NCBI GenBank assembly: GCA_007571305.1 | Contig: RKRR01000123.1 | Coordinates: 1 to 64,000 of the forward strand | Origin: Candidatus Poribacteria bacterium | Lineage (GTDB): Bacteria; Poribacteria; WGA-4E; WGA-3G | Reading direction: 5' to 3' | DNA length: 64,000 nucleotides | In this document: in pieces, positions 929-55,223 of the stretch | Layout: every line of letters begins with the position of its first letter | Position numbering within the stretch: position 1 is the first letter of the stretch | Notes under the pieces: generated by a model | Databases searched by the model: none | What the model was told of the DNA's origin: nothing | The model's input: the letters and a program-made list of their open reading frames with translations, nothing else | Translations under genes and position numbers: made by a program

Positions 929-1474
929 ATACACTACAGAGGCAGACGTACTCAGAGGACGAAGGAAAGACAAAGTCGTTCCAATTATCAGATTCGAGCC
1001 AAAGAAATTTTGCTGATAGATCACGAGAATAAGCAAATGGGGGTCATGGCACCTCGCGACGCAATGAAACTTGCGGAAGAAGTTGGATTGGATTTAGTAG
1101 AAGTTTCACCGAATGCCTCTCCTCCCGTTTGTAAAATCATGGACTACGGGAAGTATCAGTATGAGAAGAATAAGCGCGCACGCGAGGCTCGAAAAAAGCA
1201 GACGAAGGTTGTTCTGAAGGGAATGCAATTCCGCCCAGATACCGCCGAACACGACTACCAGTTCAAAAAGCGACATGTTGAGGATTTCCTGAAAAATGGA
1301 TGGAAAGTCCGTGCAACTGTCCGGTTCCGGGGACGTGAGATGCTCCATACCCAACTTGGTAAAAGTTTGCTTTCGCGGCTCAAAGACGACTTAGAAGAAA
1401 TTGCTGAAGTGGAACAACCTCCACGGATGGAAACCCGTATCATGTCGATGATCCTCTCACCAAAATCTGTGTGA
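929..1474 (+). CDS. infC: translation initiation factor IF-3 (AUA start)
   Basis: IF-3 binds the 30S subunit, prevents premature subunit joining and checks start-codon pairing. The protein matches IF-3 throughout, with YQIRAKEI, EVSPNASPPVCKIMDYGKY in the N-domain, FRGREM and a C-domain ending in MILSP. No ATG or GTG exists in frame upstream of the conserved N-terminus. A TTG at 1010 would delete the conserved first segment. The frame opens at 926, and an ATA at 929 preceded by GGGGGTG (916-922) gives 181 residues, almost the same as E. coli IF-3 (180), whose gene starts with AUU. A non-canonical start is typical of infC and allows IF-3 to repress its own translation. First gene of infC-rpmI-rplT. 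Confidence 0.93.
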   Translation: MHYRGRRTQRTKERQSRSNYQIRAKEILLIDHENKQMGVMAPRDAMKLAEEVGLDLVEVSPNASPPVCKIMDYGKYQYEKNKRAREARKKQTKVVLKGMQFRPDTAEHDYQFKKRHVEDFLKNGWKVRATVRFRGREMLHTQLGKSLLSRLKDDLEEIAEVEQPPRMETRIMSMILSPKSV

Positions 1475-1598
1475 TGTTTTTGTCGTCGTGCACGTGTTTC
1501 CTCTTCTAATTTTTTGTGGAGTGCTCCCCCAGTCACGATATTTTTTTTTTTTACGTAGGCGCGGCTTTTTCGTCGCGATACTTTTCGGGGATATTTTA

Positions 1599-1793
1599 AT
1601 GCCAAAAATTAAAACACATAAGGGTGCGGCAAAGCGTTTTAAGTTCACATCGAAAGGTAGAATTCGCCGTAATCGGGCGTACGCCGGACACTTGTTCATC
1701 TCTAAGTCTTCGAAGCGAAAACGGAGATTGCGGCAGGCAACCCTCGTTGATTCGAGCAATGAGAAACGTTTAAAACGCCTCATTCATCGATAA
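1599..1793 (+). CDS. rpmI: 50S ribosomal protein L35
   Basis: 64 residues, the usual L35 length, starting MPKIKTHKGAAKRF, the family hallmark, and strongly basic throughout (SSKRKRRLRQ near the middle, KRLKRLI at the end). The frame is open further upstream, but the L35 signature fixes the start at the ATG at 1599, behind a CGGGGAT ribosome binding site. It lies between infC and rplT, the conserved gene order, and is probably co-transcribed from the promoter at 595-623. L35 is a late-assembling protein of the large subunit. Confidence 0.97.
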   Translation: MPKIKTHKGAAKRFKFTSKGRIRRNRAYAGHLFISKSSKRKRRLRQATLVDSSNEKRLKRLIHR

Positions 1794-1898
1794 GAACGTA
1801 AGAGTAAATCCTCAGTACATAGGATGATAACAACATATTCCGGGTGAAATAGTGGACGCGGTCGCGGATAGAACTGTTGATCGCAATAGGAGTTTTAA

Positions 1899-2246
1899 AT
1901 GGCACGAGTAAAAACAGGGAGTGTGCGGCGCAAACGCCGTAGCCGGATACTTAAGCATTCTAAAGGTTACCGTGGCGGGCGGAACAACCTCAAACGCACC
2001 GCTAAAGAAGCAGTGGAGAAGGGATGGAATCACGCCTACGCACATAGACGCGCACGGAAACGAGATTTTCGGAGACTTTGGATCGCAAGAATTAACGCCG
2101 CCGCGAGATTACACGGACTTACCTACAGTCGATTCATACATGGACTCAAAGCTGCTGGTATTGAACTCGATCGGAAAGTTCTCGCCGACATTGCAGTGAA
2201 TGACGAAGCAGGCTTTGGACAACTTGCCACCCTCGTAAAAGGTTAG
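1899..2246 (+). CDS. rplT: 50S ribosomal protein L20
   Basis: 115 residues, typical for L20, starting [19 protein letters not shown], with the conserved GYRGGRNN and [18 protein letters not shown] segments and a C-terminal globular part ([20 protein letters not shown]). L20 binds 23S rRNA early in 50S assembly and in several bacteria represses its own operon through the infC leader. The start follows AATAGGAG at good spacing. Third gene of the infC operon; the T-box leader of pheS follows. Confidence 0.97.
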
Positions 2247-2368
2247 TTGTAGATTCGCCTCCCTTTTCCTGTAGAAGCGATCTCTGATCACGATAGGTAT
2301 TGGTAGAGGCTATACTACTCTCGCAGGAGAGTATATGGGAGCAATCAAGAAGGATACTTAATAGTAAC

Positions 2369-2680
2369 AAGGCGATGAAGGGACACACGTAAGCAGTTGG
2401 GACCTCTCAATCAGAAAGGCAGCGTCATCGGCTGGAAGCGCGGCTTTGAGAGCAGCTGCCGAATTTCATCCTGGAGCCAGAAACCCTACCTGGGGTTCCC
2501 ACTCGTTACTGAGAAGGGATACTGGGTCGGGCAAAAAAAAAATGAAGCGGGCAGATTTTAGGAGCGACCTCTCGGTTGCAGTAATCTGCCAAGCGGGGTG
2601 GTACCGCGGAAGTTGATGCCTGTCGCTTTCGTCCCCAGAAGGAGATAACCTTTATGGAGGCGGAGTGATAGGCGTTTTTT
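2369..2680 (+). promoter_or_regulatory. T-box riboswitch (tRNA-Phe specifier) upstream of pheS
   Basis: The T-box hallmark AAGCGGGGTGGTACCGCG is at 2591-2608; GGGG-UGGUACC-GCG can pair with CGUCCCC (2630-2636) to form the antiterminator with the bulge that binds the tRNA acceptor end. Stem I elements are visible: GGCGATGAAGGGA at the base (2371-2383) and a specifier segment GAATTTCATCC with UUC (Phe) at 2465-2467 followed by the usual purine. The competing terminator pairs GCCTGTCGCTTTC (2618-2630) with GGAGTGATAGGC (2662-2673), followed by six T (2675-2680). Uncharged tRNA-Phe should stabilise antitermination and induce pheS. No clear promoter was found; the rest of the 2247-2808 spacer holds a 2311-2335 hairpin and an AT-rich stretch before pheS. 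Confidence 0.92.
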
Positions 2681-2808
2681 GTCGGCAGACATAGCGGTAG
2701 ATGTTATCTTTCTGTAGGTTCTACCCCCGGGTCGCGATTCCTTTATATAAAAACTATATAAAAACGCTCCGACTCGGAAAAATAAACCTATAAATATACG
2801 GGACTGTC

Positions 2809-3825
2809 ATGAAAGAAGAATTACAAGCGATTCAAGCGGAGGCACTTGAGGCTTTAAAAGTCGTGAAAACCCCAGACGCGCTTGAGTCGCTCCGAATCAC
2901 ATATTTTGGACGCAAGGGAAAACTAACCGATGTCATGAAAGGTATGGGGAAACTTTCCAAACAGGAACGTCCGGTAATAGGCAAACTTGCAAATGAGGTG
3001 CGTGCCACACTTACAGAGGCTTTTGAAGCCGCGACGCAGGTACTACGTCATCAACAACAGGAACAACAACTTGAAGCAGAAGCCGTTGACATCACGCTTC
3101 CCGGACGAAAGCCTGCCTACGGGAAAGCACACCCCATAATGCAAACGTTAGAGCGAATTGAAGCTATTTTCGGTCAAATGGGGTTTGAAGTGGTGACAGG
3201 GCCCGACGTTGAGACCGAGTATTACAACTTTGATGCCCTGAATACGCCTGCTGATCATCCGGCTCGCGACTTGCACGATACCTTTTACCTCACCGATGGA
3301 CACCTTTTACGAACCCATACTTCGCCCGTTCAGATCCGCGCCATGGAGGCCCAAAAACCACCGATCCGAATTATTGTGCCGGGGAAGTGCTATCGGGTGG
3401 ACTATGATGTCTCACACACGCCGATGTTCCATCAGGTAGAGGGCTTGTTGGTTGACACGCACGCCACTTTCAGCGAACTCAAGGGCGTTTTGACCTCCTT
3501 TGCCCGACAAATGTTCGGTGACCAGACACAGATGCGTTTCCGTCCTCACTTCTTCCCTTTTACGGAACCCAGTGCGGAGATGGATATCTCCTGTGCCGTT
3601 TGTCGAGGAAAAGGGTGTCGGAGTTGTGGCGGCACAGGCTGGGTCGAGATCATGGGAGCTGGTGCTGTGGATCCAGCGGTATTTGAAGCCGTGAACTACG
3701 ACCCAGATGAAGTTACGGGTTTCGCTTTCGGTATGGGAGTGGAAAGGATTGCGAATCTCCAGTTCCGCATCCCGGACATCCGCACCCTCTACGAGAACGA
3801 TCTCCGTTTCCTACGCCAATTCTAA
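2809..3825 (+). CDS. pheS: phenylalanine--tRNA ligase alpha subunit
   Basis: Charges tRNA-Phe as part of the alpha2-beta2 synthetase in the cytoplasm. The 338 residues match PheS: an N-terminal coiled-coil tRNA-binding arm (about residues 1-90), class II motif 2 around residue 194 (CYRVDYDVSHTPMFHQVEGL), the CAVCRGKGCRSCGGTGW insertion, and motif 3 GFAFGMGVERIA near residue 304. It lies behind a T-box leader, so expression should follow tRNA-Phe charging. pheT, which usually follows directly, is absent here and must be elsewhere; the next gene is unrelated. Confidence 0.97.
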   Translation: MKEELQAIQAEALEALKVVKTPDALESLRITYFGRKGKLTDVMKGMGKLSKQERPVIGKLANEVRATLTEAFEAATQVLRHQQQEQQLEAEAVDITLPGRKPAYGKAHPIMQTLERIEAIFGQMGFEVVTGPDVETEYYNFDALNTPADHPARDLHDTFYLTDGHLLRTHTSPVQIRAMEAQKPPIRIIVPGKCYRVDYDVSHTPMFHQVEGLLVDTHATFSELKGVLTSFARQMFGDQTQMRFRPHFFPFTEPSAEMDISCAVCRGKGCRSCGGTGWVEIMGAGAVDPAVFEAVNYDPDEVTGFAFGMGVERIANLQFRIPDIRTLYENDLRFLRQF

Positions 3826-4013
3826 AAATAGTAGGCACTCTTGTCGGTAATTGCCCTCTCCGCTGAACTTAGTAGGTGCGATTCCCTAACCGCATCGGCT
3901 CTTAGACATAAACCGTGCATGCTCCGAATCTTCTGTTGAGTCCTGTGGGATTTTTGTTCTGGTATTTCTTTGGCATGTCCACAAGATTGTTATGATAGAA
4001 AAGAAGAAAATAG

Positions 4014-4895
4014 ATGAAACGCGCCTGTTTTACAATTCTCGTACTCATCCTTACTCACCACAACAATTTCGCTGTTTCCGAAGTTAGCAGTGCCGCCCAG
4101 CAGGTTCTCGCTACTATAGAATGGGTCTCGATTCCCGAAGGCACCTTTCTTATGGGCTCAACTCCGGAAGAAGTGAAAGCCGCCTACGAGGACGCGAAAT
4201 TGCGAAGTTCTATGCTGGAACAGCACACCTTTGATGCTGAACTGCCACGACACCCAGTCTACTTAAGCACTTATGAATTATCGCGGTATGAAATCACCAA
4301 CGCGCAATATCGAGTCTTCATTGAGGCAACAAACCGTCCTGCACCCCGGGGACACGACGGCGAGGAGACCTGGACAGATGAGACCCTCAGTGGCGACACG
4401 CAACCCGTTGTCGGTGTGACATGGTTTGATGCGCAGGCGTTTGCAGAGTGGATCGGTGGGAGTCTACCGACCGAAGCACAGTGGGAACGCGCAGCACGGG
4501 GGGCAGAGGGCTGGATATATCCATGGGGTAACGTCCCACCCAAAGCGCGCCAACACGCCAACTTCGCACGCCGCTACAATCGTCCGATGCCGGTAGGTCA
4601 CTTCCCGAAAGGTGAATCCGCAAACGGTGTCGCAGACCTTGCCGGGAATGTATGGGAATGGTGTCTCGATGAATACAGTCCGACTTTCTATCAACAACAC
4701 AACGATGCCGTCTCCCAAAATCCACTCAATCTTCGCTTCAGAGATGTCTTGCGCGCAAGAGTTATTCGGGGAGGCGCGTGGGACGTGGGGCGAGCGTTTC
4801 TCCGTTCAGGTCTACGGTTTAAATTTTATCCGTTGGATTCAACACATACAATTGGATTTCGGGTCGTTCGTCCGCGTCCAAAAATAAAAGAATAG
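4014..4895 (+). CDS. SUMF1/formylglycine-generating-enzyme-like secreted protein
   Basis: 293 residues with an N-terminal hydrophobic signal segment (about 1-24), so probably exported. The SUMF1 fold signature is clear: IPEGTFLMGS near residue 40, YEITNAQYRVFI, PVVGVTWFDAQAFAEW, LPTEAQWERAARG, YPWGN, DLAGNVWEWC, RVIRGGAWD and IGFRVVR at the end. In true formylglycine-generating enzymes two cysteines follow the RGG[AS]W motif; here that stretch (DVGRAFLRSGLRF) has none, so sulfatase activation is unlikely. It may be a structural, EgtB-like or PvdO-like relative. The next gene starts 13 bases downstream, suggesting co-transcription with the FG-GAP protein. Confidence 0.85.
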   Translation: MKRACFTILVLILTHHNNFAVSEVSSAAQQVLATIEWVSIPEGTFLMGSTPEEVKAAYEDAKLRSSMLEQHTFDAELPRHPVYLSTYELSRYEITNAQYRVFIEATNRPAPRGHDGEETWTDETLSGDTQPVVGVTWFDAQAFAEWIGGSLPTEAQWERAARGAEGWIYPWGNVPPKARQHANFARRYNRPMPVGHFPKGESANGVADLAGNVWEWCLDEYSPTFYQQHNDAVSQNPLNLRFRDVLRARVIRGGAWDVGRAFLRSGLRFKFYPLDSTHTIGFRVVRPRPKIKE

Positions 4896-4908
4896 CCTCT
4901 CCATAGCT

Positions 4909-6585
4909 ATGTTCCAACGCAAACACGTTCTGTTTCGCCTTCTGTCCTTCCTACTACAGTCTTTTCTCCTTCTCATGCTTCCGCCGTTCGGGAGTACTGC
5001 CGCTTACTTTCGAGACGTGACCGACGTGATGCAACTCGACTTTAGGCACATCAACGGGTTTTCCGCGGAACGCCGACTCGTTGAAACCATGGGTAGCGGT
5101 GGTGCTCTCTTTGACTTCGACAACGATGGCGACTTGGATCTCTATCTCGTTCAGGGCAATTCGCTCTCGCCATCAGCAGAGTCATCTCCCCCAAACCGCC
5201 TCTATAGAAACGAAAACGATGCTGGTGTTTTCGTTGACATCACAGCATCGGCAAACGTTGGCGATACCGGCTATGGTCTCGGTGCTGTCGCCGCGGATTA
5301 TGATTCTGATGGGTATCGCGATCTGTACGTGACAAACTTGGGCAAAAACGTCCTCTATCGAAACAACGGAGATGGCACCTTTACCGATGTAACCGAAGAC
5401 GCACAGGTAGGTTGTCCGCTGTTGAGTGCAAGTGCCGCATTCGCCGACATTGACCAGGATGGCGACTTGGATCTCTACGTGTGCAACTACGTCGAATACG
5501 CCTTGGAGACCGATATTCCGTGTTATTACAAAAATTCCCTGCGTATCTACTGCGGTCCGAATGAATATCATGGCATTGCTGATGTGCTTTACCGAAACAA
5601 CGGAGACGGCACGTTCACAGATGTCACGAAAGCCGCAGGTGTCTATGAACCGACAACGCGCGGCCTCGGTGTTGTCTTCACGGATGTCAACAATGACAGT
5701 TGGGTGGATATCTACGTCGCAAACGATATGTCTCCCAATACACTTTTCATCAATCGAGGTGACGGCACTTTTCAAGAGGAGGGTGTGCTTCGCGGCGTTG
5801 CCTACAACGGCGACGGCATAGCAAACGGCTCAATGGGCATAGATGCTGGTGACTATGACAACGATGGCGATATCGATCTCTGGGTATCCAACTTTTCGTT
5901 AGAGGCAAACTGCCTCATGCAAAATGATGGTGATGGCTATTTCGAGGATGTGACGTTTGACGCAGAGCTTGCCGACCCTTCTTTCTACGCGCTCGGTTTC
6001 GGCACCCGTTTCATCGACTATGATAACGACGGTTGGTTAGATCTGCTCGTCGGGAATGGGCATATTTGGGACAATGTGAAGCAGATTGACGCGAAAATGA
6101 GTTATGCACAACCTGTGCAACTGTTTCGCAATCAGGGTAGTACCCTACGAAACCACACGAACTTTACCGAGATTACCGCTGAAGCGGGATTGGATAAAAC
6201 ACCTTACGTCGTCCGTGGGATGCTTTTTGGAGATATAGATACCGATGGCGACGTGGACGTTGTGCTTTGTCAATCGAACCGTCCGGCGATCATTCTCAGC
6301 AATGAAGTCGGTAGTGAGAACGCGTGGCTGACAGTGAAATTAGTGGGGACAGACGGGAATACGGATGCGATCGGCGCGCAGGTTCAGTTGGAAGCAAACG
6401 GAACAACGCTCTTAAGGGAGGTTATCTGCGGCGCAAGTTACCTGTCGGGCAACGATCTGCGTCTCACCTTCGGATTGGGAAATGCCTCACAGATCAATAA
6501 TTTTCAGGTCCGATGGCACAACGGAGACGTTCAGCAACTCAGTAAAGTACCACTCCGTCAAATTGTCACATTCTCGCAGGATTGA
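4909..6585 (+). CDS. secreted FG-GAP/VCBS repeat protein with ASPIC/UnbV domain (CRTAC1-like)
   Basis: 558 residues with an N-terminal signal peptide (hydrophobic residues about 8-30). Seven DxDxDGxxD-type calcium-binding repeats are visible, such as DFDNDGDLDLYLVQGN, DYDSDGYRDLYV, DIDQDGDLDLYV, DVNNDSWVDIYV, DYDNDGDIDLWV, DYDNDGWLDLLV and DIDTDGDVDVVL, consistent with a seven-bladed integrin-like propeller. The last 100 residues (AWLTVKLVGTDGNTDAIGA to the end) match the ASPIC/UnbV domain. Probably extracytoplasmic and perhaps involved in adhesion or surface interaction; the substrate is unknown. It follows the SUMF1-like gene by 13 bases. Confidence 0.88.
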   Translation: MFQRKHVLFRLLSFLLQSFLLLMLPPFGSTAAYFRDVTDVMQLDFRHINGFSAERRLVETMGSGGALFDFDNDGDLDLYLVQGNSLSPSAESSPPNRLYRNENDAGVFVDITASANVGDTGYGLGAVAADYDSDGYRDLYVTNLGKNVLYRNNGDGTFTDVTEDAQVGCPLLSASAAFADIDQDGDLDLYVCNYVEYALETDIPCYYKNSLRIYCGPNEYHGIADVLYRNNGDGTFTDVTKAAGVYEPTTRGLGVVFTDVNNDSWVDIYVANDMSPNTLFINRGDGTFQEEGVLRGVAYNGDGIANGSMGIDAGDYDNDGDIDLWVSNFSLEANCLMQNDGDGYFEDVTFDAELADPSFYALGFGTRFIDYDNDGWLDLLVGNGHIWDNVKQIDAKMSYAQPVQLFRNQGSTLRNHTNFTEITAEAGLDKTPYVVRGMLFGDIDTDGDVDVVLCQSNRPAIILSNEVGSENAWLTVKLVGTDGNTDAIGAQVQLEANGTTLLREVICGASYLSGNDLRLTFGLGNASQINNFQVRWHNGDVQQLSKVPLRQIVTFSQD

Positions 6586-6627
6586 CACTTTTCGCTGTTG
6601 ATACTACAATGGATGATGAGGTAGAAT

Positions 6628-6752
6628 TATAGTAAAATCCGGAAATAAGTTCACACTTGTAGCATAGCCTGTTAGGCTGTGCCAGTCAGAACACATAACT
6701 TTATAGTTCGCACGACGATATGTGTGTATAAGTAATTACGGAATCTACTATA
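6628..6752 (+). repeat. 125-bp MITE-like element, TTATAG family, copy A
   Basis: Left end TTATAGTAAAATCCGGAAAT, right end ATTACGGAATCTACTATAA: imperfect terminal inverted repeats. The interior carries TGTAGCATAGCCTGTTAGG plus CTGTGC. The same element occurs reversed at 24677-24801 (also 125 bp) and in part at 27869-27983. With the repeat at 6784 it fills the 6586-6890 spacer. Confidence 0.8.
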
Positions 6753-6783
6753 AGAGATCGCTATTTTTTTAAGATCCAAGGTG

Positions 6784-6890
6784 TGTAGCCCGTAGCAGAG
6801 TGATAGATGCTTGGGTGTTTCTTGAAGTATACGGAAAGGAACCTAAAACTCTTACCCCATCTGACTGAACCGTAAGGTAAAAGTAAAAAT
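6784..6890 (+). repeat. start-site repeat (GTAGCCCGTA...AAGGTAAAAGTAAAAA), copy 1
   Basis: Left end TGTAGCCCGTAGCAGAGTGA and right end ACCGTAAGGTAAAAGTAAAA abut the ATG at 6891, so the repeat itself supplies the ribosome binding site and spacer. It shares both ends with the copies at 7311, 8882, 18662, 27828, 47577, 49232 and 53772. Confidence 0.75.
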
Positions 6891-7244
6891 ATGAAAATTG
6901 TTGAAGAAAGAGAAGCGTGGATTCACACACATTTCATCCTTGATAGTTTTTTTCTCACCGAGCAGGAACGGCGGCAGATCTCTATCAGCGTTGAACCGGA
7001 ACTGATGCATCTCGGACTCCAGTACGGGTTGACGTATGACATCTCGCCATCAAAACATCGTGCCATCATTGTCCTTGAATGCATACCCTTCGACCCGATC
7101 AAGGCGGAAATTAAAAAATTGATTAACGACGTAATTGAAGATTTCCCTGTCCGACTCCCTGAACAGCGAAACGTTGTTACCAACATTACTGTCGCGGACC
7201 AAGAAGGCCAAGAAACAGAGGCTTGGAGTGCTTCATCACGATGA
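6891..7244 (+). CDS. hypothetical protein
   Basis: 117 residues, no signal peptide or membrane segment, family not recognised. Predicted alternating strands and helices (HFILDSFFLTEQERRQI, HRAIIVLECIPFDPIKAEIKKLINDVIEDF) suggest a compact alpha/beta cytoplasmic domain; the tail (QEGQETEAWSASSR) is polar. The ATG directly follows the right end of a dispersed repeat that provides an AAGGT-type ribosome binding site. It stands alone, convergent with the enolase-family gene. Confidence 0.6.
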   Translation: MKIVEEREAWIHTHFILDSFFLTEQERRQISISVEPELMHLGLQYGLTYDISPSKHRAIIVLECIPFDPIKAEIKKLINDVIEDFPVRLPEQRNVVTNITVADQEGQETEAWSASSR

Positions 7245-7310
7245 TCTCTAGCATTGTACCGGTCAAGAATAAAGAAATCAGTATCTTCGTGGCGGAACCT
7301 GCGTAACTCG

Positions 7311-7394
7311 TGATGAAATGGAGAGCGGCTTTAAGTAAAGGAACGTGAAATCCGAGGCACACGTTGTTTGTTCGCAAGGAATCATGAAAAAAAA
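7311..7394 (+). repeat. start-site repeat, copy overlapping the 3' end of the enolase-family gene
   Basis: Left end GCGTAACTCGTGATGAAATG, right end TTCGCAAGGAATCATGAAAA. The right end overlaps the final codons of the minus-strand gene at 7382-8743: its complement encodes the last residues and the TGA stop. Confidence 0.7.
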
Positions 7395-8743
7395 TGTCCA
7401 AGCCCCGGTGCAGTAAGGACATGCGTTCCGACAGTACCATCGGTGATGTTGAAAATTGAGGGAAACTCGTCCCGCCAACTGTCATTGGCGTTCGGACAAA
7501 ATTGGCGAGCATTGCCTTCAATAGCCGTTACACCGGGAATCCGTGCGGCAAGCCCAGCGGAGTGTAAAAACGATGCCCCTGGACACGTCAGATCTTGTAC
7601 AGCGAGAAACATATCGTATCCTGCGGCGGCGGCACCCATGAGCAACGCCTGAGACTGCCCTTTACACGCCTTAAGTGCAACACCGGAATATCCTTGCTCA
7701 CGCGCTAAAAGAAAGGTCTCAAAATCGGTAAGTGACTCGTCGATGACCACAGGTTTTATCTCGGCGGCTTTGTGCATCTTATTTTCTGGATGCGCCTTCA
7801 GATCCCGATCCGTGGGTTGCTCAATATAGGCGAGACGTTGGAAGGCATTACGATCGGCTTCTTGGATTTGGCTGAGAAATGCTAACAGGTATTCTACATC
7901 TTGACAGGTTTCGTTGAAATCAGCCGAGTAGTGCCAAAGGTCAACACCGCGTTTTGCTTGTGTTTCGGCGGTGACTTTGTCGATTGCGAGGACGCGTGCG
8001 ACATCCCATGCCAGGTCGTCTCCGTTCAGTTTAATTTTCAGATGCGTCAGCCCATCGGCAACAATCCATTCAGAGAGCGTTTCTGGAAGACCGTCATTGA
8101 GACGTTCTGGGATATCCGCGTCGGTGAGCGGATCCAGGGCACCAACGAGATGATAAAGCGGCATATTCGCCTTCGGTTGACGCGCGGTATATTGGTCGAG
8201 ATATTTGCCGGTAAACCGTTCGTTCAAAAAATGGGACAGATCCACTTCAATAAAGTCTGAGCCTAATCCATCGTAACTATTGATCCCGTTCGCTTTGCCG
8301 AAGGCATCGTGGATTGCGGCATCAATCGGACTTGTCGTGACCACGGTGCAGAGTTTCGGCATCGGCGACGCGAGTGACATATTATGAGACAAATCATCGG
8401 CGATTTTTAAAAATTCTGGCTCCAGTACTTCAGAAAGTTCAAGCGGGTGTGCACAGAGTGTGCAATGCCGTGTTATCGCTACCGCCAATTCGGCAAGTTT
8501 TTTCATTGCGGCAAGACTCTGGTCAAAAGGCGCGTAGCGTGGTGGAAACGCCCAAACATTACCGAGCGGCATAGAGCCTTTTCCTTCTGCCTCTTTGCCA
8601 TCGCGCGTTTGGACCTGCACTCGTACGTTAAAGAGGACGCAGTGATCCGTCGGCACGCCGCCGAACTTGAGCGGCGTGCGGTATTGGTGCTCTTCAAAGT
8701 CGTAATGAACGTCAAGGATACGGATGTCTGTCGGTTTTGACAT
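7382..8743 (-). CDS. enolase-superfamily (mandelate racemase/MLE-like) enzyme
   Basis: 453 residues. The C-terminal barrel shows the enolase-superfamily pattern: a LKIKLNG strand with paired lysines, YIEQPT with the metal-binding Glu, VVIDESLTDFE, and the ALKACKGQSQA strand. An N-terminal capping domain precedes it. Enzymes of this type abstract a proton alpha to a carboxylate in sugar-acid or amino-acid derivatives; the substrate cannot be predicted here. Longer than the usual 360-400 residues because of an N-terminal extension with a WAFPPRYAPFDQS region. The last codons and stop come from a dispersed repeat (7311-7394), so the original C-terminus may have been altered. Monocistronic, minus strand. 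Confidence 0.85.
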   Translation of the reverse strand: MSKPTDIRILDVHYDFEEHQYRTPLKFGGVPTDHCVLFNVRVQVQTRDGKEAEGKGSMPLGNVWAFPPRYAPFDQSLAAMKKLAELAVAITRHCTLCAHPLELSEVLEPEFLKIADDLSHNMSLASPMPKLCTVVTTSPIDAAIHDAFGKANGINSYDGLGSDFIEVDLSHFLNERFTGKYLDQYTARQPKANMPLYHLVGALDPLTDADIPERLNDGLPETLSEWIVADGLTHLKIKLNGDDLAWDVARVLAIDKVTAETQAKRGVDLWHYSADFNETCQDVEYLLAFLSQIQEADRNAFQRLAYIEQPTDRDLKAHPENKMHKAAEIKPVVIDESLTDFETFLLAREQGYSGVALKACKGQSQALLMGAAAAGYDMFLAVQDLTCPGASFLHSAGLAARIPGVTAIEGNARQFCPNANDSWRDEFPSIFNITDGTVGTHVLTAPGLGHFFS

Positions 8744-8881
8744 GGTTTCCTCTTTTTAATTGTTCCTTGTTTTTAATTCTACCTCGCGGAGTCGTCAGTT
8801 GAACTTCGAGATTGACGGATTTCCTTTTCATTGATCCGTTTGTGCGGTTGTTGCAGGCTATTGTCTTAGTAAAGATAACAC

Positions 8882-8994
8882 AAAACCCGTAGCCCGTAAT
8901 GGAATAGAGGAGTTTTGCGTGGGCGTTTCTTCGGATTTAAGGGATGCCCGTCCAAGATTCAAATTCCCGTCGTTTTTCCGCAAGGAATAATTAA
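8882..8994 (+). repeat. start-site repeat, full-length copy in the spacer before the SHMT-like gene
   Basis: ACCCGTAGCCCGTAATGGAA at the left and CCGCAAGGAATAATTAAG at the right. Here the right end is not adjacent to a start codon; the next gene (9076) has its own TGGAGG site. Nothing else was recognised in the 8744-9075 spacer. Confidence 0.7.
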
Positions 8995-9075
8995 GAATCA
9001 TAGTAACCGATTTCCTATGGCCCGTCAAGCAATTTCTCTGCTCCTTACACTGAAACCAAATGGAGGTTTTTGTAA

Positions 9076-10314
9076 ATGACACAGAACACAAAAGTCCAAA
9101 AACTCACTTCACTTCTCGATAAACATCAAGCATATCGGGATACCTGTCTCAATCTTATCGCTTCGGAGAACACGCCTTCACCATTGGTAGAGGGACTTTT
9201 TGACGAACGGTTAGCACGGCGGTATGGGAATTATTCTGGCGTTGACATCTATCAAAGGAATTACAAAGGCAATCGCTACATCGCCGAGATAGAAGGATAC
9301 ACACAGGAGTTAGCAAAAGAGTTGTTCGACGCGGGGCATGTAGATTTCCGTCCATTATCAGGGAACATCGCAGGGATTGCGACGACATTTGCATTAGCAA
9401 AGCCGGGTGATACAGCATTAGAGGTTCATAACGGACACCACTATGCCCAAAAATTGCTGTCCTCACCACTGAAGATAGAACTACAATCAATTCCGATTCC
9501 GTGGGATGGACACCGTTCAAATATCGACCTCGAAGCAACGCTTGAACTGATTGCAAAACACGAACCCAGAATCGTCAACATCGGTTCCGGTGTGTTTCTC
9601 TTTCCGCAACCCGTACGGGAGTTGAAAAATGCGATGCGTCAAGCGAATCCAGACTCTTACCTCATCTACGATGCCTCACATGTCATCGGGCTTATCGCTG
9701 GCGGACGGTTTCAATCGCCCTTTGATGAAGGGGCGGATGTCATCATTTCCAGCACACATAAGACACTTGCGGGACCGCAAGGCGGAATGGTTCTAACGAA
9801 CGATGCATCCATTGCCGATCGAGTCGCGAAAGGTGTCTATCCCTTGCTGATGAGCAATCACCACCTCAATCGGCTTCCAGCATTGGCAGGGACGTTTATG
9901 GAGTGGATGGAATGCGGTGCGGCACAAGCAGATGCGATTGTTACGAATGCGAAAGCACTCGGACAGGCGTTAGCGGAACGCGGTGTTCCGATCCTCGGTG
10001 CCGAACTCGGCTTCACAGAATCGCATACCTTGATACTGATTGTGGATGCGTATGGGGAAGGTGGAACGCTCGCAAATCATCTGGAAGCGTGTCATATTAT
10101 CGTGGGTGCTGCGGGATTGTCGCCTGAAGTCGGCACATCTGGATTGCGTATGGGCGTTCAAGAGGTTACAAGGTGGGGCATGACCCCGACGGATGCTCCA
10201 GACATCGCCGAGTGTATTGTCTCAGCTCTCTCTGGTGGGACACCTGAAGTACTCAAGCCGCAGGTCGCAAAGGTGGCGCGTCGGTTTAATAATATCCAGT
10301 TCACCGTCGAGTAA
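9076..10314 (+). CDS. serine hydroxymethyltransferase-like PLP enzyme
   Basis: 412 residues of the SHMT fold (aspartate aminotransferase type I). N-terminal LNLIASENTPSP matches the SHMT start motif, followed by RYGNYSGVDIYQRNYKGNRYIAEIE, a PLP loop region RPLSGNIAGIATTFAL, the YDASHVIGLIAG Asp/His segment and the Schiff-base lysine in SSTHKTLAGPQGG (about residue 230). SHMT transfers the serine hydroxymethyl group to tetrahydrofolate. The sequence diverges from canonical GlyA in several stretches, so a related activity such as aldol cleavage of beta-hydroxy amino acids is possible. The start follows TGGAGG. Monocistronic. Confidence 0.85.
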   Translation: MTQNTKVQKLTSLLDKHQAYRDTCLNLIASENTPSPLVEGLFDERLARRYGNYSGVDIYQRNYKGNRYIAEIEGYTQELAKELFDAGHVDFRPLSGNIAGIATTFALAKPGDTALEVHNGHHYAQKLLSSPLKIELQSIPIPWDGHRSNIDLEATLELIAKHEPRIVNIGSGVFLFPQPVRELKNAMRQANPDSYLIYDASHVIGLIAGGRFQSPFDEGADVIISSTHKTLAGPQGGMVLTNDASIADRVAKGVYPLLMSNHHLNRLPALAGTFMEWMECGAAQADAIVTNAKALGQALAERGVPILGAELGFTESHTLILIVDAYGEGGTLANHLEACHIIVGAAGLSPEVGTSGLRMGVQEVTRWGMTPTDAPDIAECIVSALSGGTPEVLKPQVAKVARRFNNIQFTVE

Positions 10315-10452: not shown

Positions 10453-10500
10453 ATAGGCAAAGTAGAACTTGCCCCTACTTCACCTTGCCAATATATTATA

Positions 10501-10652
10501 ATCCAACTTGCTACCTATATGATTTCAGATACATGAACACCCTTTTTCACCAAGACTTCTTCATCTTTGCGAAAAATTGGGCGTGTCCGTGTGATTTTCG
10601 GCGCGAAGATGCACAACCTAACAGGTTATGCTACAACGTAGCAACTTAGGTC
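10501..10652 (+). repeat. MITE-like element, CCAAGTTGCTAC family, copy 1
   Basis: ATCCAACTTGCTAC at the left, GTAGCAACTTAGGT at the right (inverted). The interior carries CCTTTTTCACCAAGACTTC, GCGAAAAATTGGGCGTG and GCACAACCTAACAGGTTATG. A close full copy is at 22342-22500. With the preceding element it fills the 10315-10777 spacer up to the promoter. Confidence 0.75.
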
Positions 10653-10700
10653 ATTATACCGAGGTGTGCGTCCTTTGGTATAAATGTTTTATTTTTTTAC

Positions 10701-18661: not shown

Positions 18662-18739
18662 GCGTAGCTCGTAGTGGAATGGAGAACGGAACGTCAAAGT
18701 TCAAATCCACGTTGTTTAACCGCAAGGAAAATTAGAAAA
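18662..18739 (+). repeat. start-site repeat, copy directly before the MORN gene
   Basis: Left end GCGTAGCTCGTAGTGGAATG, right end CCGCAAGGAAAATTAGAAAA, then ATG at 18740. The AAGGA core and spacer of the gene's ribosome binding site lie within the repeat. The 18423-18661 stretch upstream shows no recognisable feature. Confidence 0.8.
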
Positions 18740-27827: not shown

Positions 27828-28035
27828 CCCGTAGCCCCTAACGTAGTGGAGGGTTTTTTGCGAGTCAACAAATAAGTTCACACGTGTAGCATCGCCTGTT
27901 AGGCTGTGCCAGTCAGAACAGATAACTTCAGAGTTCACACGACGCTATAAATGTCCAAGTCATTACGGAATCTACTATAAGAAAGGCACACTCAAGTCCA
28001 AACCTACGTCATTTAACCGCAAGGAAAGTTAAAAA
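27828..28035 (+). repeat. start-site repeat interrupted by a TTATAG-family element
   Basis: The left half (ACCCGTAGCCCCTAACGTAG, 27828-27868) and right half (CCGCAAGGAAAGTTAAAAA, ending at 28035) of the start-site repeat are separated by a 115-bp element (27869-27983) matching 6628-6752 (AAGTTCACACGTGTAGCATC ... GGAATCTACTATAAG). The right half supplies the ribosome binding site of the gene at 28036. The element lacks the usual left terminal repeat, so insertion was imperfect or followed by loss. Confidence 0.72.
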
Positions 28036-31657: not shown

Positions 31658-31758
31658 TCTTTTTTTAAGACAATTTTTCGACAGAATTACAAACCGAAAA
31701 TTGCTATTAAGTGCACTGAATCACGGTAATTTGTAATATAGGCTTCCTTACCTATTTT

Positions 31759-31919
31759 AATCCAAGTTGCTACGGACAAGTTTTTAGGCATATAGATGCC
31801 ATTTTTCAGCGAAAAACCTTCAGTCCTTAGATGTTTTTGTAGCATAGGAAACTGTTGGTTTCCTGTGAACATTTATGCACAATCTAACAGGTTATGCTAC
31901 AAACTGGCAACTTGGGTTA
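31759..31919 (+). repeat. MITE-like element, CCAAGTTGCTAC family, copy 3
   Basis: AATCCAAGTTGCTACGGACA at the left, GGCAACTTGGGTT at the right. The interior has GGACAAGTTTTTAGGC, TTTTTCAGCGAAAA and both core variants in opposite orientation (TGTAGCATAGGAAACTGTTG and AACAGGTTATGCTACA). Near-identical to 42376-42534. It fills most of the 31658-32042 spacer. Confidence 0.82.
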
Positions 31920-42326: not shown

Positions 42327-42375
42327 TTTTCAGATGACCCCGTTCATCTTCCTATATATTCGGTCATCGTACCTT

Positions 42376-42534
42376 TAACCCAAGTTGCTACGGACAAGTT
42401 TTTAGGTAGATAGATGTCGTTTTTCAGCGAAAAGCCTTCAATATTGAGATGTTTTTGTAGCATAGATTGTTGGTTTCCTGTGGACATTTATGCACACCCC
42501 AACAGGTTATGCTACAAACTGGCAACTTGGGTTA
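42376..42534 (+). repeat. MITE-like element, CCAAGTTGCTAC family, copy 4
   Basis: TAACCCAAGTTGCTACGGAC at the left and GGCAACTTGGGTTA at the right, perfect 11-bp inverted ends. Interior as in the copy at 31759, with TGTAGCATAGATTGTTGGTT and CCAACAGGTTATGCTACA cores in opposite orientation. It occupies most of the 42193-42616 spacer. Confidence 0.85.
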
Positions 42535-47576: not shown

Positions 47577-47655
47577 AGCCTAAGTAAAGTGGCAGGTGCC
47601 TTCGCGAAGTAGCATAAACCATTACTCGTCAGTTAACCGCAAGGAAAATTAAAAA
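47577..47655 (+). repeat. start-site repeat before purH
   Basis: The right end AACCGCAAGGAAAATTAAAA abuts the ATG at 47656. The left end is diverged (CCTAAGTAAAGTGGCAGGTG). The repeat supplies the ribosome binding site of an essential purine gene. Confidence 0.75.
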
Positions 47656-49221
47656 ATGAAAAAAATACAACGTGCACTTATCAGTGTCTATGACAAAACG
47701 AACCTTTTAGAAATAGCCAATGCCCTTGCGCAACGTAGTGTCGAAATCCTCTCCACCGGTGGCACTGCTCAGCACCTTCGAGACGCTGGAATCGACATCC
47801 TTGATGTTTCTAACTACACCGGTTTTCCTGAGATGTTGGATGGTAGAGTCAAAACACTCCACCCTAAAATTCATGGAGGGATCCTTGCTGATCAGGATAA
47901 TGTCGAACACAATGCCCAGGCGAAAGCACACGGCATTACTCCCATTGACATGGTGATATGCAATTTGTATCCATTTGAGGCAACAGTCGCCCAGCCCGAC
48001 GTGACGCTTCCCCATGCGATTGAGAATATCGATATCGGAGGGCCAACGATGATTCGCGCCGCAGCGAAGAATTATCGGCACGTCGCTGTTCTCACGGAGT
48101 CAAGCCAATATCCGCAAATTATCTCCGATTTGGATGCCAGCGACGGCTGTCTTTCGGAAGAGAGGCGGTTTGAGTTAGCACAGGCAGCGTTTGCCCATAC
48201 TGCGCACTATGACACCGCAATCGCTTCTTATCTCGCTGATGTAGATTCACAACCGGGCGAATTCGCCACCGATCTGACACTCCATTTCAGGAAGGAGCGC
48301 ACACTCCGTTATGGCGAAAACCCACATCAACGCGCCGCTTTCTATAAAACTGGAGCCAATCCTGGTATGTGTGCTGCGTGGGCAAACCAATTGAGTGGAC
48401 AGCCGCTCTCCTTCAATAACCTCCTCGATTTAGAAGCCGCCTTAGAGATCGTCAAGGACTTCGAGACCGCTGCTTGCGCGATTATCAAGCATAATAACCC
48501 GTGTGGACTCGCAACGGCAGACAATCTGCAAGATGCCTTTACGAACGCATTGGAATGCGATAGAACCTCTGCCTTCGGTTCGATTGTCGGGTTAAATCGG
48601 AAAGTGACAATCCAAACAGCAAACATCATCCGCGAAGCTGCAAATACGGGGGTGAAGATCGACGCAATTATCGCACCGAGTTATACCAAGAAGGCACTAC
48701 GAGCACTGTCTCGGGTCAAACGCCGGCCGATTCTTGAAGCCGGATCGCTTTCGGCTGCGGAACCTGTTTTGCAGATTCGCAATATTACCGGTGGTGTACT
48801 CGTCCAAGATTCGGATGTACACGACTTAGACGCTGACGATTTGAAAGTTGCAACCTCCCGTGCGCCAACAGAAGCGGAGATAGAATCCCTGCTTTTCGCG
48901 TGGAAGGCGTGCAAACATGTTAAATCGAATTGCATCCTGCTTGCCAACGGCACACAGAGCGTCGGTATCGGTGCAGGTCAGATGAGTCGCGTGGATGCCG
49001 CTATCATCGCTATCCGAAAGGCTAGTGAAAAGGCGAAGGGAGCTGTATTAGCCTCAGATGCCTACTTCCCATTCCCTGACGGTGTTGAAATCGCCGGTGA
49101 GGCGGGCATCAGTGCGATTATTCAGCCCGGCGGCTCTGTCAATGACGATCCTGTAATTGAAACAGCGGATGCTTACGGTATAGCGATGGTGTTGACAGGC
49201 GTACGCCATTTCCGACATTAG
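47656..49221 (+). CDS. purH: bifunctional AICAR formyltransferase / IMP cyclohydrolase
   Basis: 521 residues, full length. N-terminal cyclohydrolase (MGS-like) domain with ALISVYDKTNLLEIANAL, ILSTGGTAQHL and GRVKTLHPKIHGGIL; C-terminal AICAR formyltransferase with LRYGENPHQRAAFY, IKHNNPCGLA, DRTSAFGSIVGLN and SDAYFPFPDGVE. It performs the final two steps of purine synthesis. Its start is preceded by a dispersed repeat that provides AAGGA. Monocistronic in appearance. Confidence 0.97.
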   Translation: MKKIQRALISVYDKTNLLEIANALAQRSVEILSTGGTAQHLRDAGIDILDVSNYTGFPEMLDGRVKTLHPKIHGGILADQDNVEHNAQAKAHGITPIDMVICNLYPFEATVAQPDVTLPHAIENIDIGGPTMIRAAAKNYRHVAVLTESSQYPQIISDLDASDGCLSEERRFELAQAAFAHTAHYDTAIASYLADVDSQPGEFATDLTLHFRKERTLRYGENPHQRAAFYKTGANPGMCAAWANQLSGQPLSFNNLLDLEAALEIVKDFETAACAIIKHNNPCGLATADNLQDAFTNALECDRTSAFGSIVGLNRKVTIQTANIIREAANTGVKIDAIIAPSYTKKALRALSRVKRRPILEAGSLSAAEPVLQIRNITGGVLVQDSDVHDLDADDLKVATSRAPTEAEIESLLFAWKACKHVKSNCILLANGTQSVGIGAGQMSRVDAAIIAIRKASEKAKGAVLASDAYFPFPDGVEIAGEAGISAIIQPGGSVNDDPVIETADAYGIAMVLTGVRHFRH

Positions 49222-49231
49222 TGACGCTGAG

Positions 49232-49336
49232 AGGGTCAGAACGAAAACCAAGCCTGAAACGGAGTAGAAAGCACTCCATAGAAAGACCCGTTGGAGGATT
49301 AACCCACGATACTTATCCACAAGGAAAATTAGAGAT
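49232..49336 (+). repeat. start-site repeat before the iron-containing alcohol dehydrogenase
   Basis: Right end ATCCACAAGGAAAATTAGAG directly precedes the TTG start at 49337. Left half GAAACGGAGTAGAAAGCACT is diverged from other copies. Confidence 0.65.
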
Positions 49337-50494
49337 TTGGCTACTACACTAATGCTCCCATCCACAATCATTACAGGCGCAGGCGCGTCCGAGAATGCCG
49401 GCGAGCAGGCGAAACGGCTCGGTGCGACGAGCGCGCTTATCGTCACCGATCCAGGCATTGCCGAAATCGGATACGCCGACAAGATCGCCCAAAATTTAAA
49501 CGATGCCGGGGTAGCATCCTCATGTTTCTCTGATGTCACACCCGACCCCACCCTACAGAATGTGCAAGACGGCTTAAGGCAATATGCTGACGAATCCTGC
49601 GATGTAATTGTGAGCATCGGTGGTGGAAGTGCAATCGACTGCGGAAAAGGCATCGCCATGAAACTAACAAACGACGAGGACTTTGCCGATTACATGGGTG
49701 TAGACAAGATTCCGAATCCGGGGGCTCCATTCATCGCGATACCGACCACAGGCGGAACGGGCAGTGAAGTCTCCAAAGTTACCGTCATCACCGACACCGA
49801 AAGGAACGTCAAGATGATGCTCAGCAGCCCGTGCCTATTGGCTCATGTTGCCCTGGTGGACCCGCTGCTCTCCTTAACAACACCACCGCACCTAACTGCG
49901 GCAGTCGGTGTCGATGCCCTAACGCACGCCATAGAGGCATACATCTCCAAACGTGCCCAGCCGATAACCGACGCGCTCGCGTTGAAGGCGATTGATATGA
50001 TTTCCGGTTCACTTCGGCAGGCATGGGCGGACGGCGAAAACATCTCTGCCCGCACGGATATGATGATCGGTGCCTCTATTGCAGGGATGGCGTTCAGCAA
50101 TTCATCTGTGGCTTTAGTTCATGGGATGTCCCGTCCCATCGGTGCGTATTTCCACATCCATCACGGGTTGTCGAATTCGGTGCTGTTACGTGATGTGATG
50201 GAATTTAGCGTCGTCGGTGCGCCTGCCCGCTTTGCCGATATCGCGTATGCCATGGGCGAGCCGATTGACGGATTGTCTCCAATGGAGCAAGCGGACGCAG
50301 CAATTGATGCGGTGGAACGGCTTGTCACCGATATTCAGATGCCACGACTCGGTGAAATCGGTATTGACGAGCAGAAATTCGAGGATGTCATTGAACAGAT
50401 GGCGAAGGATGCAATCGCAAGCGGGAGTCCAGCCAACAATCCACGACAAGCGACGGCTGAGGAGATCGTTGCGCTGTACCGTCAGTGTTTTTAA
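49337..50494 (+). CDS. iron-containing alcohol dehydrogenase
   Basis: 385 residues, TTG start inside/after a repeat with AAGGAAAATTAGAGAT. SIGGGSAIDCGKGIAM is the NAD-binding motif; metal ligands are in VDALTHAIEAYI, SSVALVHGMSRPIGAYFHIHHGLSNSVLL (two His) and the upstream Asp. The family oxidises primary alcohols or reduces aldehydes with NAD(P). No cognate pathway is evident next to it; purH upstream is unrelated. Confidence 0.92.
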   Translation: MATTLMLPSTIITGAGASENAGEQAKRLGATSALIVTDPGIAEIGYADKIAQNLNDAGVASSCFSDVTPDPTLQNVQDGLRQYADESCDVIVSIGGGSAIDCGKGIAMKLTNDEDFADYMGVDKIPNPGAPFIAIPTTGGTGSEVSKVTVITDTERNVKMMLSSPCLLAHVALVDPLLSLTTPPHLTAAVGVDALTHAIEAYISKRAQPITDALALKAIDMISGSLRQAWADGENISARTDMMIGASIAGMAFSNSSVALVHGMSRPIGAYFHIHHGLSNSVLLRDVMEFSVVGAPARFADIAYAMGEPIDGLSPMEQADAAIDAVERLVTDIQMPRLGEIGIDEQKFEDVIEQMAKDAIASGSPANNPRQATAEEIVALYRQCF

Positions 50495-53000: not shown

Positions 53001-55223
53001 ATGAAATTGATCCCAGATGAGTCTCAATCTCATCAAAAACCGATTTTCGACAACGGAGAAAATCAAGTAACAATTTCCACAGTTAAAAATATCGGCGTTG
53101 ATACGGGTGGCACCTTCACCGACATTGTGATGCGTATTGATGGCGACCTGTTCATACACAAAGTCCTGTCCACGCCGCAGAACCCTGCCCTCGCCGTCAT
53201 CCAAGGTGTCAGTGAAATTTTGCGTATGCACGGCACCGATACCGAACGACTGGACATTGTTCACGGATCTACGGTAGCAACGAATGCACTTCTTGAACGT
53301 AGAGGAGCGCGTATCGCCCTCGTCACGACGAAAGATTTCGAGGATATTTTGGAGATAGGCAGACAGACACGTCCGAACCTCTATGATTTCTTCGTGGAAC
53401 GTCCCGCGCCTCTTGTCCCCGCCGATAGACGTTTCGGTGTATCGGAACGAACACTACACACAGGTGACATCCAGGCTGAGATTGAATCCAGCGATTTAGA
53501 GGCACTCGCGTCCGAGCTCGCTACATTGGAACTTGATGCCATCGCGATTTGTTTCCTCTTTGCCTACGTTAACCCGCAGAACGAACAGATTGTTGCAAAG
53601 TATCTTGCACGACTTGGTCTACCCGTCTCATGCTCCCACGAAGTCTTACCGGAATATCGAGAGTATGCCCGTTTTAGCACTACTGTAGCGAACGCGTATA
53701 TCCGTCCGACTTTGGAGAGGCATCTCTCTACGTTGATAGATTCTGACGTGCTGCACAACTTTAACGAAACCGCAGCCCGTAATGAAATGGAGTGCGACTC
53801 GAACACGAAAAACGTCAAGAAACAAAAGGCCGATACTTACCCGCAAAGTAAAATTAAAAAAGTGTTCCGTTTGATGCTCTCCAACGGAGGGTGCGTTTCT
53901 GCTAAGAACTTTGAATCCGCGGGTATCCGCACAGTCCTTTCCGGTCCCGCTGGTGGTGTTATTGGAGCATCCGAAGTCGCCAAAACCGCTGGCTACGACC
54001 AAATCATCACATTTGATATGGGCGGCACTTCAACAGATGTGAGTCTCTGCAATAGCGGCATCTCGCTCACGACTGAGAGTACGATTAGTGGACTCCCCAT
54101 CAAAGTTCCACTGATTGATATTCACACCGTCGGTGCAGGGGGTGGTTCTATTGCGACTGTGGATACCGGTGGCGCACTCCGTGTCGGACCCGAAAGTGCG
54201 GGAGCAGATCCAGGGCCCATCTGCTACGGAAACGACGGAGCAGATGTCACAGTAACCGATGCAAATCTCTACTTGGGACGTATCGCGGCGACCCAGTTTT
54301 TAGGGGGAGCTATGTCTCTTGACTCCGATAAGACGCGGATACACCTTGAAGAATTTGCACAACGTCTTGGCGTTCCACCACTTCAAGCGGCAGATGGTAT
54401 TCTTAAGGTTGCTAACGCTGCGATGGAACGCGCCATCAAAGTCATCTCTGTAGAACGTGGGTTTGATACGCGCGATTTCACGCTCGTTTCTTTTGGTGGT
54501 GCTGGTGGTCTACATGCCGCATTTATGGCGGAAAATCTAGGTATCCGGACAGTGCTTATTCCACCAAATGGCGGTTTGCTTTCTGCTTACGGGATGCTCT
54601 TTGCAGATGTCGTTAAAGATTATTCGCAGACAGTACTATGGCAGTTTGAAAAGAGCAGCGAAGGTAACGAAAGTCTTGTTAAAGCGTTGAATGAAGGTTT
54701 TGGCACACTCTTGAGCCGCGCAGAAGATGAGATGGAAATTGAGGGATTTGCCTCTCACCAACTTAAAATTGACCGTTCACTTGATATGCGATATGAGGGA
54801 CAGTCTTATGAGTTGAATATCCCATGTTTTACCAAGGAACATGTTCCGTCAAATGAAATAGTGGAAATCCTTGTTGCAAAATTTCACGCTGCGCATGAGT
54901 TGCGGTTTGGTTATGCCCGAACCGATGCCCCAGTGGAGGTGGTGAACCTTCGGCTTACAACTACTGGGGAAACCGACAAGCCCCCCATCCAATCAGTTCC
55001 ACTCGTCGGTGCTGATGCCTCTGAAGCGTTTACTGTCCAAGATCCTGTTATTTTTGAGGGTGAAGCACTCCCAACGGATTTCTACCGCCGTGAGGCGTTG
55101 GGGCCCGGCAACCGAATCGCAGGTCCCGCGATTGTGACAGAATTTAGTGCAACGACTGTTATTCCGCCAAATTTTTCTGCTGTTGTTGATGTCTACCAGA
55201 ATCTTATTTTGAGCAGAAAATAA
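53001..55223 (+). CDS. hydantoinase/oxoprolinase A-type ATPase subunit with an in-frame repeat insertion
   Basis: 740 residues. ASKHA-type ATPase: GVDTGGTFTDIVMRI near residue 30, HGSTVATNALLERRGARIAL, TVLSGPAGGVIGASEV, FDMGGTSTDVSL, and DIHTVGAGGGSIATVD, all typical of HyuA/OplA subunits that open hydantoin or 5-oxoproline rings with ATP. Residues 258-287 are coded by a 90-bp dispersed repeat (53772-53861) inserted in frame between the YIRPTLERHLSTL segment and FRLMLSNGG, where homologs have only a short linker. Usually the B subunit (HyuB) follows; here none does, only a methyltransferase on the opposite strand. Confidence 0.9.
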   Translation: MKLIPDESQSHQKPIFDNGENQVTISTVKNIGVDTGGTFTDIVMRIDGDLFIHKVLSTPQNPALAVIQGVSEILRMHGTDTERLDIVHGSTVATNALLERRGARIALVTTKDFEDILEIGRQTRPNLYDFFVERPAPLVPADRRFGVSERTLHTGDIQAEIESSDLEALASELATLELDAIAICFLFAYVNPQNEQIVAKYLARLGLPVSCSHEVLPEYREYARFSTTVANAYIRPTLERHLSTLIDSDVLHNFNETAARNEMECDSNTKNVKKQKADTYPQSKIKKVFRLMLSNGGCVSAKNFESAGIRTVLSGPAGGVIGASEVAKTAGYDQIITFDMGGTSTDVSLCNSGISLTTESTISGLPIKVPLIDIHTVGAGGGSIATVDTGGALRVGPESAGADPGPICYGNDGADVTVTDANLYLGRIAATQFLGGAMSLDSDKTRIHLEEFAQRLGVPPLQAADGILKVANAAMERAIKVISVERGFDTRDFTLVSFGGAGGLHAAFMAENLGIRTVLIPPNGGLLSAYGMLFADVVKDYSQTVLWQFEKSSEGNESLVKALNEGFGTLLSRAEDEMEIEGFASHQLKIDRSLDMRYEGQSYELNIPCFTKEHVPSNEIVEILVAKFHAAHELRFGYARTDAPVEVVNLRLTTTGETDKPPIQSVPLVGADASEAFTVQDPVIFEGEALPTDFYRREALGPGNRIAGPAIVTEFSATTVIPPNFSAVVDVYQNLILSRK
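53772..53861 (+). repeat. start-site repeat inserted in frame within the hydantoinase A gene
   Basis: Left end GCAGCCCGTAATGAAATGGA and right end CCGCAAAGTAAAATTAAAAA match the intergenic copies (for example 18662-18739). The 90 bp equal 30 codons without a stop. The right end lost the AAGGA core (AAAGTA) and is followed by GTG. Confidence 0.8.

Follow-up and report, generated by a model that had tools for sequence, protein, structure and literature searches.

Introduction

Fusions of short repeats to bacterial proteins, in frame with the host gene, have been described for several families, including REPs, ERIC, YPAL, QMITE and others (available text of PMC3733652, PMC2229807 and PMC5896051). 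The insertion of repeats into conserved bacterial proteins is best known from Rickettsia. According to the portions of PMC2229807 and PMC10969869 that are available, the Rickettsia palindromic elements (RPEs; Ogata et al. 2000) are repeats of about 100–150 bp that are restricted to one genus, keep an open frame, and lie in frame within conserved, unrelated genes. The initial annotation of the locus described here pointed to RPEs as the known analogue. This is a fair comparison, but RPEs are not the sole analogue, given the fusions described for the other families.

The repeat presented below is an independent case, from the uncultured phylum Poribacteria. A search of the open-access literature on repeats or MITEs in Poribacteria returned nothing on a repeat of about 91 bp. 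Close species with and without an insert at the same sites, together with genomes of one genus whose copy numbers lie between none detected and about 800, make two questions testable: how a small repeat spreads within coding sequences while the genes survive, and whether translation starts can be rewired genome-wide by a mobile element.

A repeat copy within the hyuA gene

The host genome (G000) is a Candidatus Poribacteria MAG of 200 contigs, and the repeat occurs in some sponge-associated Poribacteria. One of the genes in the window, i.e. the whole 64-kb stretch of DNA that was analysed, encodes a HyuA protein of 740 aa, which is a complete member of the hydantoinase A/oxoprolinase family by its Pfam domains; its NCBIfam match to caprolactamase alpha lies below the family cut-off. 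The named relatives retrieved with this protein were Candidatus Poribacteria MAGs throughout, apart from one distant Ruminococcaceae protein.

It had been noticed that 90 bp at 53772–53861 lie in frame with the ORF at 53001–55223, encode residues 258–287 without a stop, and belong to a dispersed repeat. All of this was borne out. A blastn search of 161 bp around the site against its own genome gave 41 matches (E up to 10), and a profile (R1, 92 positions, built from 17 copies) detected at least 153 copies in the same genome, the hyuA copy being its top match (E 3.5e-20), and 9 convincing copies in the window. The coordinates of the main features are collected in Table 1. The in-frame insert stands, with two refinements: the repeat extends slightly more to the left, the profile placing it at 53768–53859, and the net gain over empty-site relatives is 34 residues, not 30. 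The junction TTTAACGAAACC starts at 53760, to the left of the profile edge at 53768. The linker from HLSTL to FRLMLSNGG measures 129 nt here versus 27 nt in empty-site relatives. That homologs have only a short linker at this place also agrees with solved structures (7hk5 and 6yra), in which 12–13 residues separate the two conserved blocks, as against 43 in this HyuA.

The right end of the copy was also said to have lost its AAGGA core, as if selected not to start translation internally. The loss itself is real (CAAAGT instead of the usual CAAGGT or CAAGGA) and corresponds to one substitution confined to this genome. The selective explanation is unsupported, because other filled hyuA alleles keep CAAGG; uvrA copies retain it as well, and selection against an internal start in hyuA was rejected.

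Table 1. Position of the hyuA-like gene, its insert and further repeat copies in the window
Feature	Position	Strand	Basis
hyuA-like CDS (hydantoinase A/oxoprolinase/caprolactamase-alpha family), 740 aa	53001..55223	+	Pfam Hydant_A_N, Hydantoinase_A, Hydant_A_C
Segment of codons 248–288, in place of 7 empty-site codons (net +34 codons)	53742..53864	+	Alignment of 30 genus homologs
Dispersed repeat of about 91 bp, single unit, stop-free frame	53768..53859	+	Profile R1, 74.3 bits, E 4.7e-22 (window)
Left module, 21-nt imperfect palindrome GCCCGTAATGAAATGGAGTGC	53775..53795	+	Covariation over 67 copies
Right end CCGCAAAGTAAAATTAAAAAA, AAGG changed to AAAG here	53841..53861	+	Comparison with other copies
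Copy adjoining the start codon of the 521-aa purH-like ORF at 47656	47583..47655	+	Profile R1
Copy shortly before the 385-aa ORF at 49337	49246..49330	+	Profile R1
Right part of a copy, adjoining the 242-aa ORF at 28036	27975..28035	+	Profile R1
Copy ending at the ATG at 18740	18664..18737	+	Profile R1
Right part of a copy, before the 117-aa ORF at 6891	6827..6888	+	Profile R1
Copy ending at the ATG of a very short ORF	7304..7390	+	Profile R1
Copy ahead of the minus-strand ORF of 453 aa, paired in inverted orientation with 8887–8994	8771..8863	-	Profile R1
Second half of the inverted pair, between ancestral promoter-like sequence and gene start	8887..8994	+	Profile R1

A repeat family expanded within one genus

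The repeat is nearly constant in length at about 91 bp (84–93 bp in 66 of 67 copies), with the consensus ACCGTAGCCCGTAATGAAATGGAGGGCGGATCTAAGGAAAGAACCGTCAAAGTTCAAACCCACGTTATTTATCCGCAAGGTAAAATTAAAA. An imperfect hairpin of 21 nt, GCCCGTAATGAAATGGAGGGC, forms its left module and shows covariation: over 67 copies, both members of a pair are changed in 44 cells, versus 13.7 ± 2.5 after shuffling and at most 11 after sliding. The palindrome is preceded by GTAG in 24 of the 67 copies, and by ATAG, CAAG or TTAG in others. The usual right end reads CCGCAAGG(T/A)AAAATTAAAAA and is followed by a start codon. Read forward, the consensus has one stop-free frame out of three, and this is the frame used in hyuA; diverged individual copies vary, and other frames can be open there. 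The unit has no terminal inverted repeats, its consensus ends ACCGTAGCCC and GGTAAAATTAAAA not being complementary. An Rfam scan of the hyuA repeat region gave zero matches. An inverted pair of units was considered as the general form and rejected, since an inverted end lies within 200 nt upstream in only 4 of 53 sampled copies.

Copy numbers differ widely among genomes. Profile R1 finds 56 copies in a 400-kb sample of the closed chromosome of G010, hence about 800 per genome by scaling. Two genomes of the same genus carry 26 (G012) and 5 (G029), and no copy was detected in G022, a closed chromosome of the same genus, which is a natural control genome with relatives having hundreds of copies. 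Fifteen genomes from other genera gave zero profile matches. These counts identify the repeat as a genus-level expansion, very uneven in size.

Two further observations concern repeats in these genomes. Head-to-tail arrays of the 91-bp repeat, their periods being close to 111, 117 and 120 bp, are present in G018:C1 (4577259–4578359, 2978227–2978922 and 4776265–4776720). Other dispersed families of 50–113 bp (D6, D7, D9 and D10) occur in the window at 10494–10653, 31753–31919 and 42371–42534, and at 6643–6755 together with 27870–27982.

Preference for gene starts

Copies are biased towards gene starts and avoid ORF interiors. This was measured on 62 copies, drawn from the window and the 400-kb G010 sample, with ORFs taken from a simple ORF caller. 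Whereas random placement would bring 3.2% of copies to within 0–20 nt before the start codon of a same-strand ORF, 39 of the 62 end there; conversely, only 3 of the 62 lie inside an ORF, where chance would place 81%, and the hyuA copy alone is deep in an ORF interior. Where a start codon follows within 12 nt (38 copies), AAGG most often precedes it by 12 nt (20 copies).

At orthologous gene starts, species that have the repeat can be compared with species that lack it. At the start of the purH-like gene, the repeat is present in G000, G010 and G018 and absent in G022, G012, G025, G029 and G031. For the 453-aa gene, repeat-free species have a common leader, TTGACGTGCCG...GGTTACGATGA...GAGGAAATT-ATG, and this promoter-like sequence is found about 280 nt upstream in G000 and G018, with an inverted repeat pair in the gap. 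In the window, this pair (8771–8994) separates a sigma70-like promoter sequence from the gene start, and relatives poor in the repeat have an uninterrupted leader.

Filled and empty hyuA sites

The alignment of HyuA homologs that had been proposed as a check was carried out on 30 homologs from the genus, 16 of which are filled and 14 empty. The empty site reads HLSTLIDAERFPATFRLMLSNGG (G024), as against HLSTLIDSDLLRSFNETV...PQGKIKKSFRLMLSNGG in filled genes, and the linker measures 27 nt in every empty genome versus 63–156 nt in the filled ones. Homologs having the same residues without the DNA repeat, and a lack of genome-wide copies, were both looked for, and neither spoke against insertion. 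The insert is variable among relatives: its interior has been exchanged for other repeat variants in G008 and G019, and it is enlarged in G017 and G005 and cut down in G010, always in frame. Relatives in which it is reduced to 19 residues retain the gene.

Many relatives have a second in-frame insert, FQRSLQAENLLYRG, about 15 residues downstream. It belongs to a different hairpin repeat, TTTTCAGCGTAGCTTGCAAGCTGAAAACTTGC, which is located at 11–23 sites per genome in the five genus genomes searched. This second family has apparently compensating stem changes, and it is duplicated in hyuA of G012 and enlarged in that of G025 (L278–L297; e.g. L032, L045 and L046). The corresponding linker of a more distant poribacterial HyuA (L106, OY282383.1) is longer and unrelated (HGSAPLISAAQESTGKSRQRALTQEEMEPEQFTTS).

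On the hyuA tree, the filled and empty states require 8 changes, at least 7 of which are forced by well-supported branches, and every one of the 8 genomes in the two clades that lie outside the mixed ones is empty. A single insertion does not account for this pattern. Filled and empty alleles are scattered, and sister species differ while their flanks are unchanged. The junction GATTCTGAYTTGCTG..TTTTAACGAAAC occurs once per filled genome, in hyuA only. The left junction, SDLL.., was rejected as a part of the repeat because it is confined to hyuA; being unique to hyuA and common to 15 filled genomes, it speaks for one origin of the hyuA insertion. No clear target-site duplication was seen at the compared empty sites, and hyuA and one gene start show replacement of small stretches.

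Recombination might be considered in place of transposition: one old hyuA insertion would have been exchanged or lost by short tracts, and the other copies homogenised by gene conversion. The junction unique to hyuA argues for it, as do interiors swapped for other repeat variants between unchanged ends, and the silent divergence, which is 0.21 in the insert and 0.51 in the flanks. However, the flanks of filled G008 and empty G024 are identical over 78 nt on the left and at least 36 nt on the right, which would imply tracts far shorter than in usual homologous exchange, and the first spread to new sites is left unexplained. Short-tract exchange of the insert between species is possible. As an account of the present pattern, recombination deserves serious attention without being the favoured reading, and it is compatible with a mobile repeat.

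Constraint on the inserted peptide

Ten hyuA inserts of standard length have pS 0.21 and pN 0.11 (ratio 0.54), as compared with pS 0.51 and pN 0.09 (ratio 0.18) for the flanks across the genus. Purifying selection acts on the gene, while constraint on the inserted peptide is weak, and the insert is younger, or more homogenised, than the gene around it. Domestication, in which the peptide would be selected for a function such as linker length, interaction or regulation, could be read from the retention of the insert in 16 of 30 genomes with the frame intact in all, and from a pooled pN/pS below 1. We regard it as unlikely, since the interior is exchanged, enlarged or shortened without loss of the gene, and several pairs that include this genome have nearly equal pN and pS. 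An ancestral linker, resembling the repeat by chance or itself the source of the repeat, has nothing more than the open frame in its favour and is very improbable: it is refuted by the empty sites of the two outside clades and of the solved homologs, and is also opposed by a match at E about 1e-20 and by the presence of the repeat at other genes hundreds of times. An assembly or binning artefact, suggested by the fragmented MAG, has a negligible probability and is likewise refuted, because the same insert is present in many independent MAGs and in single-contig chromosomes (e.g. OX639992.1, in a shortened form, and OX639973.1).

Other proteins carrying the repeat

A search for other proteins with in-frame copies, also proposed at the outset, yielded cases in this genome (uvrA) and in related ones (nadK and others). 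The linker of a double-length uvrA of this genome contains the repeat in frame at G000:C130:16645–16740. It is also found in G034 and G025, in shorter forms in G031 and G008, and is lacking in other species. This UvrA (L198, around 16600 of the same contig) has 1967 aa, and its linker also contains short in-frame repeats of the ATCAGC type (RSAVSDQQS). The NAD kinase gene nadK has the repeat in several species and lacks it in most; in G027, it forms an exact 111-nt tandem duplication. The comparison of filled with empty sites covered hyuA, uvrA and nadK. Further in-frame copies are found in G010, in a protein identified by eye as N-acetylmuramoyl-alanine amidase-like, and in three others: a permease-like protein and two proteins of 1250 and 2274 aa. 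The list that gave these three was chosen by translating the hyuA frame and is hence biased towards it.

Candidate mover and phages

The Y1_Tnp (RAYT) transposase was considered as the mover and rejected: its Pfam family (PF01797) had zero matches in G000 and G013, both repeat-rich, and PF01797 counts show no evident relation to copy number. The repeat was found in two contigs of a viral collection (L332 and L333). One of them, IMGVR_UViG_3300012932_000188 (L332), has phage head/neck genes and, at 1292–9773, five copies directly before genes in 12 kb. Phage records searched with the hyuA copy gave zero matches. Since a phage contig carries copies, phages may ferry the repeat between hosts.

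A probable mobile repeat tolerated at gene starts and in loops

We consider it highly probable that a mobile repeat of about 91 bp, belonging to one genus of Poribacteria, was inserted in frame in the HyuA linker, and that such repeats are tolerated at gene starts and in loops. The repeat would have entered the linker between two conserved HyuA blocks, and its copies would survive where they are harmless, i.e. directly upstream of start codons and rarely inside genes. At gene starts, the right end, which resembles a ribosome site, may replace the native one; inside genes, the one stop-free consensus frame would permit read-through in a tolerant loop. The insert is probably neutral in the folded HyuA, and a trans-acting machinery, possibly spread with phages, may move the repeat. 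More tentatively, this genus-specific mobile repeat might act as a portable ribosome-binding site that replaces native starts in hundreds of genes, including on phages, and as a portable in-frame protein linker; we do not hold this broader role to be the likelier case.

Comparison with known repeats

Like RPEs, the repeat is inserted in conserved genes with the frame preserved, as hyuA, uvrA and nadK show by their empty sites. Unlike RPEs, its copies lie mostly at gene starts with a ribosome-site-like end, and they number about 800 per genome versus tens. Moreover, RPEs are palindromic as a whole, with 12-bp terminal inverted repeats, whereas the Poribacteria unit has only the 21-nt internal hairpin. 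Because these defining terminal repeats are absent, the unit is not filed under RPEs; it also belongs to another phylum, and the likeness drawn here is one of described features.

The GTAG/CGTC REPs (PMC3733652) are palindromes of 20–40 bp with a GTAG tag at their foot; in the Poribacteria unit, which is 91 bp long, GTAG precedes the palindrome in 24 of 67 copies and other tetranucleotides do so elsewhere. REPs also occur inside genes, repair genes included. The tyrosine transposase associated with REPs (RAYT) was not found in this genome.

The SAS/ESAS repeats of Cluster K mycobacteriophages, as presented in the available text of PMC3203893, resemble the Poribacteria repeat in lying by start codons and having an upstream inverted repeat, and a phage contig is involved here too. 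By contrast, SAS are 13 bp long (GGGATAGGAGCCC), essentially restricted to phages, and present in 11–19 copies per genome. The start-codon position is thus common to both, but the right end of the Poribacteria repeat does not correspond to the SAS core. Insertion inside proteins is not among the features of SAS described in that text.

Finally, MITEs with in-frame fusions (ERIC, YPAL/RU-2, the 107-bp Correia element and QMITE; available text of PMC2229807 and PMC5896051) are likewise small non-autonomous repeats translated within genes, and the inverted pairs at some Poribacteria loci would have inverted ends. However, the Poribacteria unit lacks terminal inverted repeats, target duplication was not found at the compared empty sites, and a start-codon habit is not described for MITEs in those texts. 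Small repeats read through in proteins are already known; the Poribacteria case is unusual for its start-site habit and for its natural series of empty and filled sites.
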